The notes under the pieces were generated by a model. The model was not told the DNA's origin, did no database searches, and saw nothing but the letters and a program-made list of their open reading frames with translations. 45,040 bases of DNA from Haloferax larsenii JCM 13917. Its GTDB lineage: Archaea > Halobacteriota > Halobacteria > Halobacteriales > Haloferacaceae. The position numbers were made by a program, and so were the translations under genes. This document shows positions 15,522 to 19,563 of this stretch, piece by piece (positions within the stretch are counted from its first letter, which is position 1; each line of letters begins with the position of its first letter). The stretch is from positions 8,823 through 53,862 of the forward strand of contig NZ_AOLI01000034.1 of assembly GCF_000336955.1 (NCBI RefSeq), given 5' to 3'.

Positions 15522-16802
15522 TCAGTTCGGGAGGTCTCGACGAACTGCGTCGGCCGCCTCGCGACCGCTTCGCATCGCGCCGTGAATCGACGACCACGTG
15601 GTGTAGTCGCCTGCGAGGTAGGTTCGACCGTTCGGGTCACGAGCGTCGGGAAGCGAGTCGTGGACGCCCGGCGGTTGGGAGAACTGCGCGAAGGAGACGT
15701 AGTCGGTGTGGAGCAGTTCGAGGTCGTCGAAGTAACGTTCGGGGTACCACGCTTCGAGCGTCCGGCGCGTCTTCTCGAAGAGAGAGTCTTCCGACTCGTC
15801 CTGCACGGCGGAGCCCAAGAACGTCGCGTTCAGGAGTTCCGTCCCGCCGGGTGCGTACTCGGGGGCGACCGTCGAGAGTGGAACGATGGTGTTGGGGTCG
15901 GGGTCGGCGACGTTGAGCATGATGCGTTTTCCGGCGTCGAGACCGCTGTCGGTCGGGAGCGTGTAGTACTGGGTGACACAGCCGCGCGCGTCGGTCGGAA
16001 TCGACTCGACGCCCGTGAGTCGCCGGGCCTCTTTCGGGTCGGTCGCGACGACGAGCGCGTCGGCTTCGATTGACTCTCGCCCGGTCGTCACGACCGCGCC
16101 GCCGGCGTCGCTCTGAAGCGATTCGACGCGCTCGCCGAGGCGGATGGTTGCCCCCTCGTCGCGGGCGCTGTCGGCGAGTTGCTCGGGGATAGCCTGCATT
16201 CCAGCGGCCGGAACGGCGGTCGACCCGGTCGAGAGCATCTTGAAGGTGTACTCGAAGACGCGCTTCGACGTGGAGAGCGACCGGTCGAGCGTGATGCCAC
16301 CGTAGAAGGGTGCGACGAAGTGCTCGATGTAATCCTCGGAGAAGCCCCAGTCGCGGAGGTGTGCCCGGATGCTCCGGTCGGGACCGTCGAATATCTCGGC
16401 TTCGTCGCGGGTGCTCACGTCCTGTCTGAGAGCGAGCGTCCGAAGCTTGTCGCTCGTCGTGATTTCCGGGTTCCGAAGCGAGTCGACCACGCTTTCGATG
16501 TCCCGAAGCGGGTCCGAGAGGACCGAGCGACGACTCGGCCGACAGAGCGTCGCACCCGGCGTGAACCGCCGCAGGTCGAGGGCGTCGAGGTCGAGTTCAC
16601 GTCGAACCGAGGGGTAGTCGGTCAGGAGGACCTGAAACCCGCGGTCGAGCGTGAAGCCGTCCTTGGTCCGGGTTCGAACGCGACCACCGACTTCGTCACG
16701 ACGTTCGACGACGGTGACGTCTGCCCCGTCGGCGGCGAGGTGGCGTGCGGCGACGAGTCCCGCGAGTCCCGCGCCAACAACCACGATGTGGCTATCGTCC
16801 AT
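15522..16802 (-). CDS. NAD(P)/FAD-dependent amine-oxidase-like oxidoreductase
   Basis: A 426-residue flavoprotein of the protoporphyrinogen oxidase/phytoene desaturase superfamily. The N-terminal FAD-binding dinucleotide fold is clear (VVVGAGLAGLVAARHL, then the acidic end VVERRDEVGGRVRTR). The C-terminal FAD motif is YLAGDYTTWSSIHGAMRSGREAA. The middle contains DPKEARRLTG and a substrate domain of the desaturase type. Relatives act on carotenoids or amines, and the substrate here is unknown. I used ATG 16802 (MDDSHIVVVGAG), because a start nine codons earlier adds nothing related to the fold. The gene is divergent from the threonine-synthase-like gene, with 94 bp between starts. Confidence 0.85.
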   Translation of the reverse strand: MDDSHIVVVGAGLAGLVAARHLAADGADVTVVERRDEVGGRVRTRTKDGFTLDRGFQVLLTDYPSVRRELDLDALDLRRFTPGATLCRPSRRSVLSDPLRDIESVVDSLRNPEITTSDKLRTLALRQDVSTRDEAEIFDGPDRSIRAHLRDWGFSEDYIEHFVAPFYGGITLDRSLSTSKRVFEYTFKMLSTGSTAVPAAGMQAIPEQLADSARDEGATIRLGERVESLQSDAGGAVVTTGRESIEADALVVATDPKEARRLTGVESIPTDARGCVTQYYTLPTDSGLDAGKRIMLNVADPDPNTIVPLSTVAPEYAPGGTELLNATFLGSAVQDESEDSLFEKTRRTLEAWYPERYFDDLELLHTDYVSFAQFSQPPGVHDSLPDARDPNGRTYLAGDYTTWSSIHGAMRSGREAADAVRRDLPN

Positions 16803-16896
16803 ACCCGGTCTCTCGGACGGGCGACACAAAGCCCCTGCGGGTGTCCGCCGTCGGCCGACGAGAAGGGCTTAGTCCCTCCCCCCGTAAGGGCCGCCT

Positions 16897-18066
16897 ATGC
16901 AACCGTCCGACACGTTCTCTGGGCTGGAGTGTACGGAGACCGGCACCGAATACGACGCCGACGTGACCGGTCGCAGCGAGGCCGGTGCGCCACTGGACCC
17001 GACGTACGACCTCGGTGCGGTCGATTGGGACGCCGACACGCTCGCCGGTCGAGCGTTCGACTCGATGTGGCGCTACCGCGAACTGCTTCCCTTCTCCGAC
17101 CCCGTAACCGCGAACGAGGGGGCGACCCCACTGGTCGAAGCGTCCACTCTCGGCGACGAGGCCGAGGTGGGAACGCTGCTCATCAAGGACGAAGGGCGAA
17201 ACCCCACGGGGACGTACCTCGACCGTGGGTTCTCTCTTGCGGCGACGGCCGCCCGTAACGCCGAGGCCGAGGTTGTCGCGCACGCCTCTCCCGGCAACGG
17301 TGCCCAGTCGGCGGCCTCCTACGCAGGCCTCGTCGATGTCCGCTCCTATGGGTTCGTCCCCTCGCGGACGCCGTTCCCGAACAAGGCGATGGTGAACGTC
17401 CACGGCGGCCAGATGAAGGTCGTCGGCGGGCGCTACCCGGACGCGCTCTCGGCGCTCCACGAGCAACTCAAGAGCGACTGGTACACGCTTCAGGAGTTCG
17501 ACAACCCGTACCGACACGACGGGGCGAAGACCATCGCCTACGAAATCGCCGAGCGACTCGAGTGGTCGGTCCCCGACTGGGTCGTCGTCCCCGCTGCGAC
17601 GGGTGAACTCGTCTACGGCGTCTTCAAGGGCTTCCGCGACCTCGCCGAACTCGGCCTCGTCGAGAACGTGCCCCGACTGGTGGCGGCGCAGTCTGCTGGC
17701 TGTGCACCCATCGCCACCGCGTGGGAGGCCGGAAACGACGACACCGAGGCGTGGAACCACCCAGACACCATCGTCGGCGAACTGGAGATCCCCGACCCCG
17801 AAGGCGGGGCGCTCGCACTTCGCGCTATCGAGGAAACAGGCGGTCTCGCGGCGTCCGTCAGCGACGACGACGCCCTCGAATCGGCAGTCACCGCAGCGCA
17901 AAAAGCGGGTGTCGAAGTCGGCGCGGCAGGTGGTGTCGCGCTCGCGGCCGTCTGGGACCTCGCAGACGAGTTCGACGACGAAGACACCGTGGTCGTCGTC
18001 AACACCGAGTCGGGGTCGAAGAACGCCGACATCCTTCGGAGCCACCTGATGGGACAGGGAATCTAA
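16897..18066 (+). CDS. threonine-synthase-like PLP-fold protein lacking the catalytic lysine
   Basis: A 389-residue fold-type II (tryptophan synthase beta-like) protein most similar to threonine synthase. The family motif NPTGSFKDRG appears as NPTGTYLDRG (103-111). The lysine that forms the Schiff base with PLP is leucine at residue 108, encoded by CTC at 17218-17220. The serine/asparagine loop is PGNGAQSAASYAG. The glycine-rich phosphate loop is reduced to PAATGELVYG, and the C-terminal TGHG is NTESGSK. The rest of the fold is well kept, with no frameshift and normal length. It therefore seems to be a maintained protein that is probably not a threonine synthase. It could be a pseudoenzyme, a regulatory subunit or an enzyme with other chemistry. 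A CTTAG element about 26 bp upstream may be its TATA box. Confidence 0.85.
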   Translation: MQPSDTFSGLECTETGTEYDADVTGRSEAGAPLDPTYDLGAVDWDADTLAGRAFDSMWRYRELLPFSDPVTANEGATPLVEASTLGDEAEVGTLLIKDEGRNPTGTYLDRGFSLAATAARNAEAEVVAHASPGNGAQSAASYAGLVDVRSYGFVPSRTPFPNKAMVNVHGGQMKVVGGRYPDALSALHEQLKSDWYTLQEFDNPYRHDGAKTIAYEIAERLEWSVPDWVVVPAATGELVYGVFKGFRDLAELGLVENVPRLVAAQSAGCAPIATAWEAGNDDTEAWNHPDTIVGELEIPDPEGGALALRAIEETGGLAASVSDDDALESAVTAAQKAGVEVGAAGGVALAAVWDLADEFDDEDTVVVVNTESGSKNADILRSHLMGQGI

Positions 18067-18166: not shown

Positions 18167-18871
18167 ATGTTGAGCGACGTGATGGAGGATTATCTGAAGG
18201 CAATTTACTCGCTTCAGATGGAACACGGCCCGCCGGTATCCACGTCAGATATCGCGGAGTACCTCGGGAAGACGCCGCCGACGGTGACGAGCATGGTCGG
18301 GAAACTCGAAGAACGAGGACTGGTCGAACGCGAGAAGTACAAGGGGGTCGAGTTGACCGACGAAGGAGAGACCGTCGCACTCGAAGTGCTTCGACACCAC
18401 CGCCTGTTGGAAGCGTATCTCACGGAACACCTCGATTACTCGTGGAGCGAGGTTCACGAGGAAGCGGACGCGCTCGAACACCACATCAGCGAAGAGTTCG
18501 AACGGCGCGTCGCGGCCGCCCTCGGGAACCCGAAAGTGGACCCCCACGGCGACCCGATTCCGAGCGCCGACCTCACTCCTCCCGACTCGTCGGGTCTTTC
18601 GATGCTCTCCGACCACGGGGTCGGCGACACGGTCGTCGTCTGCCGAGTCAGCGACCGCAACCCCGAAGAACTGGAGTACCTCTCCGAGGCGGGCATCACT
18701 CCGGGGACGACTATCGACGTGACCGACATCGCACCCTTCGGGATGGTCACGGTGCGCGTGGTCGAAACCGAATCCGAACAGAGCCTTCCCGAATCCGTCG
18801 CTCGCACCATTCGCGTCCGAGAACCTGACGGCGACTGTCAGGGCGAGGACGAAGAGGTGTCCATGGCGTGA
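18167..18871 (+). CDS. sirR: DtxR/MntR-family metal-dependent repressor
   Basis: A 234-residue metalloregulator. The winged helix is at ~5-65 (STSDIAEYLGKTPPTVTSMVGKLEERGLV). The metal-binding dimerisation domain is at ~70-135 (RHHRLLEAYLTEHL, HEEADALEHHISEE, DPHGDPIPS). A FeoA-type SH3 domain is at ~143-217. Asp8 in VMEDYLKAIY matches the manganese-selective Asp8 of Bacillus MntR. Iron-type DtxR has methionine there. The GTGA overlap with the GDT1-type transporter gene downstream, and a perfect palindrome over its own promoter, support a manganese-responsive autoregulated operon. Haloarchaeal orthologs are named SirR. Whether it senses Mn, Fe or both must be tested. Confidence 0.92.
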   Translation: MLSDVMEDYLKAIYSLQMEHGPPVSTSDIAEYLGKTPPTVTSMVGKLEERGLVEREKYKGVELTDEGETVALEVLRHHRLLEAYLTEHLDYSWSEVHEEADALEHHISEEFERRVAAALGNPKVDPHGDPIPSADLTPPDSSGLSMLSDHGVGDTVVVCRVSDRNPEELEYLSEAGITPGTTIDVTDIAPFGMVTVRVVETESEQSLPESVARTIRVREPDGDCQGEDEEVSMA

Positions 18872-19563
18872 CCTCGTGGGGAGAGATTCTCGTCGTCGCG
18901 CTCGTCGCTCAGTTGGCTGTGCTCCCCGGTGAGAAAGTCCAGTTTATCATCGCCGGACTCTCGACGCGATTCGACCCCAAAGTCGTCGTCGCGGCGGCGG
19001 GGTCGGCGTTCGCTCTCTGGACCGCGCTCGAAATCGTGCTCGGACAGGCGCTTAAGAACGCCCTCCCACCGGTCGTTCTCGATTCGATTACGGCGATACT
19101 GTTCGGGCTCTTCGCAGTGTTGTTGATTCGGGCCGCACCGTCCGGTTCTGACTCTGCCCCGGCGACTGACGGCGGTTTCGCGGACGACGATTTCACGCCG
19201 ACCGTCTTCGGTCACGAACTCACGAGCACCCGGTTCGGCGGGTTCTTCCCCATCTTTGCGATGATGGCGGCCGGTGAGTTCGGCGACAAGACACAGTTGG
19301 TGACTATCGGACTCGCCGTGCAGTACGGTGCACACCCGGCAATCTGGGCCGGTGAGATGCTCGCAATTATCCCCGTGAGCATCGCCAACGCGTACTTCTT
19401 CCACCGGTTTTCGGACCGCTTCGACGAGCGCAAGGCCTACCTCGGTGCCGCAGGGCTGTTCGCCTTCTTCGCCGCCGATACGGTACTTGCCATCGTCACT
19501 GATTTCTCGGTGTGGGAGACGCTCGTCGGAACCGTCTCTGACGCGATTCTCTCGCTCGTCTGA
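18868..19563 (+). CDS. GDT1/TMEM165 (UPF0016) family divalent cation transporter
   Basis: A 231-residue membrane protein with six predicted helices in two homologous halves. The second half carries the family motif E-x-G-D-K-T as EFGDKTQ (137-143). In the first half the expected motif is reduced to PGEKVQ (20-25), so the usual pseudo-symmetry of the cation site is lost. Family members move Mn2+ or Ca2+ (Gdt1, Mnx), typically exporting manganese from the cytoplasm. GTG at 18868 overlaps the sirR stop by four bases (GTGA), which implies translational coupling. An effluxer made together with an MntR-type sensor is a sensible unit for manganese detoxification. That function is inferred from the family and the context. 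Confidence 0.85.
   Translation: MTSWGEILVVALVAQLAVLPGEKVQFIIAGLSTRFDPKVVVAAAGSAFALWTALEIVLGQALKNALPPVVLDSITAILFGLFAVLLIRAAPSGSDSAPATDGGFADDDFTPTVFGHELTSTRFGGFFPIFAMMAAGEFGDKTQLVTIGLAVQYGAHPAIWAGEMLAIIPVSIANAYFFHRFSDRFDERKAYLGAAGLFAFFAADTVLAIVTDFSVWETLVGTVSDAILSLV

Follow-up and report, generated by a model that had tools for sequence, protein, structure and literature searches.

A threonine synthase-like protein without the PLP lysine in Haloferax and other haloarchaea: a probable conserved pseudoenzyme

Results

The locus and its gene

The window, that is, the whole stretch of DNA that was analyzed, comprises 45,040 nt of Haloferax larsenii JCM 13917 (contig NZ_AOLI01000034.1). It holds an intact gene with a threonine synthase fold that lacks the lysine of the PLP Schiff base (Table 1). 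The translated open reading frame (16897-18066, + strand) contains ...LLIKDEGRNPTGTYLDRGFSLAA..., and residues 102-111 (17200-17229) of the protein are NPTGTYLDRG. In the phmmer alignment, Leu108 was paired with the Lys of NPTGSFKDRG in the threonine synthase structures 2zsj, 1uim, and 2d1f. The translation and this alignment confirmed what an earlier note, made from the sequence alone, had read at the site: NPTGTYLDRG for NPTGSFKDRG, with Leu at Schiff-base position 108. The same note had described the gene as full-length and unbroken, in agreement with the 389 residues and the complete fold of the AlphaFold2 model (pLDDT 91.6, pTM 0.92).

The best Foldseek matches of the model were threonine synthases (top PDB entry, Arabidopsis thaliana 2c2b; E = 5e-29, TM = 0.87), which places the protein in the tryptophan-synthase-beta (fold-type II) fold. 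Membership of the Pfam family PALP (PF00291) was also evident (211 bits; cut-off 35). The nearest NCBIfam model was PRK08197 threonine synthase, for which the score of 289 bits fell below the cut-off of 303; the score on TIGR00260 was 140.6 bits (cut-off 167). Thus, of what marks a threonine synthase (EC 4.2.3.1), the protein has neither the Schiff-base Lys, nor the Gly-rich phosphate loop, nor the equivalog score.

Table 1. Genes and protein features at the locus (positions numbered within the window)
Feature	Position	Strand	Evidence or remark
FAD-dependent amine oxidoreductase, divergent neighbor	15522..16829	-	Pfam Amino_oxidase, 193 bits
Threonine-synthase-like fold-type II gene without the PLP lysine	16897..18066	+	389 aa, ATG start, PALP PF00291
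Degenerate N-terminal zinc ribbon	16930..16989	+	CxxC...CxxC in Lys-bearing relatives; Cys12 alone left
Leu108, codon CTC at the Schiff-base lysine position	17218..17220	+	phmmer alignment to solved threonine synthases
SPGN, SxGN loop, residues 131-134	17287..17298	+	Asn134 kept; Pro replaces Ala132 of Lys-bearing relatives
Former PLP-phosphate loop P232-L238, PAATGEL	17590..17610	+	phmmer alignment: corresponds to PVGNAGN in the threonine synthase structures
E295, G303, G304 (ELEIPDPEGG)	17779..17808	+	Newly invariant in the Lys-less Haloferacales clade
C-terminal tail D378-I389 (DILRSHLMGQGI)	18028..18063	+	Nearly invariant with or without Lys
DtxR-family metalloregulator with FeoA domain, downstream neighbor	18167..18871	+	Pfam Fe_dep_repr_C, Fe_dep_repress, FeoA; synteny
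GDT1-family cation/proton antiporter, downstream neighbor	18868..19563	+	Pfam GDT1; synteny

Lys-bearing relatives at a shared locus

Other haloarchaea have Lys-bearing relatives that were approximately 50% identical to the window protein, carried FKDRG and the loop YPTGGGVGL(V/I)G, and scored 375-386 bits on PRK08197 (cut-off 303). The AlphaFold2 model of a Lys-bearing relative (pLDDT 81.8) was too uncertain around the site. A common locus, consisting of a divergent FAD amine oxidoreductase gene, the window-type gene, a DtxR regulator gene, and a GDT1-type transporter gene, was found in several genera; it held a Lys-bearing copy in Haloarchaeobius (L120) and a Lys-less copy in Haloferax. Another conserved neighborhood, in Natrialbaceae, was common to Lys-bearing Natrialba and Lys-less Natrinema. 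Because the locus is common to both forms, the Lys-less gene corresponds in position to the Lys-bearing one and is not a stray duplicate.

The FAD amine oxidoreductase gene adjoined Lys-bearing and Lys-less copies alike, in about half of the 80 named loci. Since this gene and those of SirR and GDT1 also flank Lys-bearing copies, the neighbors are uninformative on a new role, and the functional hint that might be drawn from them was dropped. The DtxR regulator, with its fused FeoA domain, and the adjacent GDT1-type antiporter gene are likely to form a metal-homeostasis unit. Several Haloferacaceae genomes (G015, G016, G018, G023, G029, G030, and G031) have a second, Lys-bearing copy (L047-L054 without L052); these copies clustered with those of other families rather than with the Lys-less copy of the same genome, which gives the impression that the active form was acquired anew.

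Absence of the lysine across relatives

The gene was present in all 15 Haloferax genomes searched, with Leu at site 108 in 14 and His in one (H. marinum). Within the family of the window genome, 34 of 35 genomes gave a full-length copy and none of the 34 had Lys; the copy of the 35th was truncated before site 108 and was left out of the Lys count. Among 61 Lys-less sequences, the site was occupied by Leu (21), Thr (13), Ala (9), Tyr (6), Val (5), Arg (3), or others (4). The conserved trait is the absence of lysine and not leucine itself, and the conserved Leu108 that the earlier note expected was not observed. Lys-less copies were also common in other haloarchaeal families (codes f4 and f12; L156-L173), in which the loops varied (e.g., PVGHG and PTGEG).

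Repeated loss of the lysine

For the later trees, the lysine column was removed together with 14 other active-site columns, so that convergence could not pull Lys-less sequences together. A first tree, which used all columns except 108, required four changes at the site, whereas the 82-sequence tree with the 15 active-site columns removed required six. A single Lys-less clade was rejected on the latter (log-likelihood difference 289, p-AU = 5e-78). The enlarged tree, with additions mainly from 19 more genomes, required 10 changes, nine of which were forced by supported branches; there, the Natrialbaceae copies formed one supported clade in which both states, with and without Lys, occurred. A single origin of the Lys-less state was thus ruled out, both by the AU test and by at least nine changes on supported branches.

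Clear local losses were seen in Halobacterium salinarum (Lys to Arg, compared with Halobacterium sp. TGN-42-S1), in Halococcus, in a Natrialbaceae group, and within one genus (L156 vs. L157). Because the outgroups have Lys, and the residue belongs to the mechanism of the whole superfamily, the changes at site 108 appear to be mostly losses, with loss rather than gain as the main direction. Two sequences, L089 (Natrinema salsiterrestre) and L159 (G228), had Lys back at the site together with a degraded, non-GGG phosphate loop. The return of Lys would be odd if the position were irrelevant; their phosphate loops stay unrestored, and the change was probably a chance reversal of the letter only.

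Changes that accompanied the loss

Residue counts were compared between 38 Lys-bearing and 61 Lys-less sequences, with L089 and L159 set aside. The phosphate-loop GGG was found in 38/38 Lys-bearing sequences and 1/61 Lys-less sequences, Ala132 in 38/38 and 10/61, and Phe107 in 38/38 and 9/61, respectively. Ala132 and the GGG loop changed with the lysine in all six informative independent tree pairs (median P = 0.03). Judged from these residue patterns, the parts of the catalytic apparatus are lost together. The phosphate loop is PVGNAGN in canonical enzymes, PTGGGVG in Lys-bearing relatives, and PAATGEL in the window protein; for this loop, the suggestion that other cofactor loops were also altered was right.

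New residues were fixed in the Lys-less Haloferacales. Glu237, within the former phosphate loop, and Glu295, which replaces the Gly295 of Lys-bearing copies, were each present in 39/39 Lys-less Haloferacales sequences, as was Gly303; Gly304 was present in 38/39, and Gly346 was also newly invariant in this clade. A phosphate loop that holds a glutamate would be expected to disfavor a phosphate. The change from Gly295 to Glu was not retained as a general accompaniment of Lys loss: it occurred in Haloferacales and Natrinema, but in only one or two of the six independent pairs.

Compared with the Lys-bearing relatives in the alignment, the Lys-less clade showed no new conserved lysine. K97, K163, K211, K244, and K375 are conserved in the Lys-bearing relatives as well, and Lys97 is invariant both in these and in canonical enzymes. 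All candidates for a relocated lysine are therefore ancestral, including Lys97, which had been proposed for that role. Because Asn134, K97, R206, Q265, D323, and K375 are kept in the pocket of the window protein, some residual or altered chemistry would be possible.

Four or five zinc-ribbon cysteines were found in 38/38 Lys-bearing sequences, whereas one or none was left in 12/61 Lys-less sequences, including all Haloferax; the N-terminal zinc ribbon is gone in Haloferax and its close kin. In the C-terminal tail motif, DxLRSHLMGxG, each of D378, S382, L384, and G388 was present in 61/61 Lys-less copies; an argument from this retained tail presupposes that the tail is more than structural.

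Selection on Lys-less copies

Values of dN/dS were calculated by NG86 over dS of 0.1-1.3. The median dN/dS was 0.117 in Lys-less Haloferax and 0.108 in Lys-bearing Natrialba, and it was 0.168 in Lys-less Natrinema and 0.107 in Lys-less Halococcus. Lys-less groups other than Haloferax ranged from 0.107 to 0.254, compared with 0.08-0.21 for Lys-bearing groups. The window gene is under purifying selection and is not decaying. Two marks of a pseudoenzyme were thus observed: the catalytic residue is missing in an intact, conserved gene, and purifying selection continued after the loss, in Haloferax as in other Lys-less groups.

Threonine synthases of the genome and the H. volcanii counterpart

A canonical ThrC is encoded elsewhere in the same genome (L067; 271 bits on TIGR00260, cut-off 167) and was 35% identical to the window protein. 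Two further Lys-bearing paralogues were found, L066 (G000:C14:276044-277156) and L151 (contig C27; G000:C27:23556-24605). The former is threonine-synthase-like, falls below both threonine synthase cut-offs, and has the loop PVSSGGHASG; the latter is a fourth threonine-synthase-like Haloferax paralogue, with FPTGSFKDRG, including its Lys, and the loop PLGHGTLFLG.

In H. volcanii, the gene should correspond to HVO_0818, identified by position: its neighbors would be HVO_0817, with the annotation flavin amine oxidoreductase (PMC4300041), on one side and the DtxR regulator SirR, HVO_0819 (PMC11349517), on the other. By position, these two are the counterparts of the oxidoreductase and SirR neighbors in the window. 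The gene and the large glutamate synthase gene were 46-57 kb apart in seven Haloferax genomes; this spacing fits HVO_0869 at 786,914 and an interpolated position of approximately 740 kb for HVO_0818. A transposon in H. volcanii thrC3 (HVO_2969, position 2,805,618) caused an auxotrophy that Gly, Ser, and Thr together relieve (PMC4300041). The gene disrupted in that mutant is not the counterpart of the window gene. Because the thrC3 mutant is auxotrophic although HVO_0818 should be intact, the Lys-less protein would not replace threonine synthase in vivo, if the assignment to HVO_0818 is right.

Discussion

We consider it probable that the product of the window gene is a conserved pseudoenzyme whose role is non-catalytic and consists in binding a ligand or a partner. 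From its residues, the protein is predicted to form no PLP Schiff base and to have no threonine synthase activity, and its job is probably independent of the original PLP chemistry. The earlier note had argued for a conserved pseudoenzyme or a new activity and against a housekeeping threonine synthase, a reading that is supported by the Lys-less family, purifying selection, the sub-threshold PRK08197 score (289 vs. 303 bits), and the separate ThrC.

The following course of events may be proposed. The ancestor would have been a haloarchaeal PLP-dependent paralogue of the PRK08197 type, additional to the canonical ThrC, in which catalysis was combined with a second, non-catalytic role residing in the two-domain body and the C-terminal tail. 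With threonine supplied by the canonical ThrC, catalysis by the paralogue would have become dispensable; the PLP lysine and the Gly-rich phosphate loop would then have been lost together, repeatedly, while purifying selection continued to act on the body and tail. In Haloferacales, the emptied PLP pocket would have been rebuilt (Thr235-Gly236-Glu237, Glu295, and Gly303/304). The rebuilt pocket would most likely bind a small non-PLP ligand, perhaps an amino acid or amine, and the protein might then act as a ligand-gated regulator or scaffold. As a statement on the whole family, it is conceivable, although we hold this tentatively, that the PLP site was dismantled many times because the essential job is not catalysis, and that the Haloferacales pocket, with Glu237 and Glu295, is a ligand-sensing or PLP-free catalytic site.

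The main rival is a new enzyme, in which the rebuilt pocket would catalyze a reaction that needs no PLP Schiff base; Glu237 and Glu295 might, for example, serve as acid/base groups or bind a metal. The invariance of both glutamates throughout the Lys-less Haloferacales and a constraint equal to that in Lys-bearing enzymes are consistent with such an activity. However, the loss of the Lys in Natrinema, Halococcus, H. salinarum, and others was not accompanied by a gain of Glu237, and no cofactor or metal motif was recognized. With the new residues confined to particular lineages, one new chemistry does not account for the entire Lys-less set, and we regard a new enzyme as rather unlikely.

A protein that is still a PLP enzyme, with non-covalent PLP reacting directly with an amino substrate or with another lysine as the substitute, would be more doubtful again. 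Asn134 of the SxGN loop and the conserved K97, K163, K211, and K375 remain and would be compatible with it, but the Gly-rich phosphate loop is lost in 60/61 Lys-less copies, with a Glu in its place in the lineage of the window, and the conserved lysines are ancestral ones to which the Lys-less clade has added none. It is very improbable that the gene is a decaying threonine synthase relic heading for loss, as the disappearance of the Lys, the loop, and, in the sublineage of the window, the zinc ribbon and the longer branches of Lys-less clades might suggest: the frames are open and full-length in all Haloferax genomes searched, dN/dS is approximately 0.1-0.25 in Lys-less groups, and residues have become newly invariant beside a conserved tail. 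That codon 108 reflects a mistake in sequencing or assembly, a possibility for which a check of orthologs had been proposed, is practically ruled out by the absence of Lys from 15/15 Haloferax genomes and the entire family.

The preferred reading, a conserved pseudoenzyme, can be set beside known systems. PRK08197/NF006050-type relatives (e.g., L103 and L120) share with the window protein the fold, length, approximately 50% identity, C-terminal tail, and, in several genera, the locus, but they have FKDRG, the GGG loop, and the zinc-ribbon cysteines, whereas all three are absent from the window protein, which also falls below the family cut-off. Canonical ThrC (TIGR00260; L067; 1uim and 2c2b) has the same fold-type II fold, and its NPTG and SxGN motifs are partly kept; its catalytic Lys and the phosphate loop GNAGN are both missing from the window protein. 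In eudicots, the fold-type II PLP-family paralogue TSB-like lost its own catalysis and activates a partner, although the changes that gave rise to it affected two different key residues, A190 and E386, in another family and other organisms (PMC12727527). Rv3778c of Mycobacterium tuberculosis belongs to the PLP family, is conserved, lacks the Schiff-base lysine, and was judged likely to be non-catalytic; it is related to cysteine desulfurases (PMC12910592), whereas the window protein belongs to the threonine synthase family. The ornithine decarboxylase antizyme inhibitors are also PLP-superfamily pseudoenzymes (mentioned in PMC2748086). A search of the open-access literature found nothing on HVO_0818 or on haloarchaeal threonine-synthase pseudoenzymes.

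Pseudoenzymes of the PLP superfamily were already known; the novelty here lies in the repeated loss at a single conserved locus and in the rebuilt pocket. Similarity searches would label the Lys-less proteins as threonine synthase, with a risk of misannotation. Such proteins can also be overlooked because the rules of the B6 database discard sequences without the PLP lysine (PMC2748086).

The present family is a single syntenic one in which the same catalytic lysine was lost repeatedly, in recent and ancient events, among related culturable organisms. Pseudoenzymes are usually found as single events. Losses within Halobacterium and within one genus stand beside relatives that keep the Lys, and such losses make the role that an enzyme has besides catalysis directly testable; the predicted counterpart, HVO_0818, sits in the genetically tractable H. 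volcanii.
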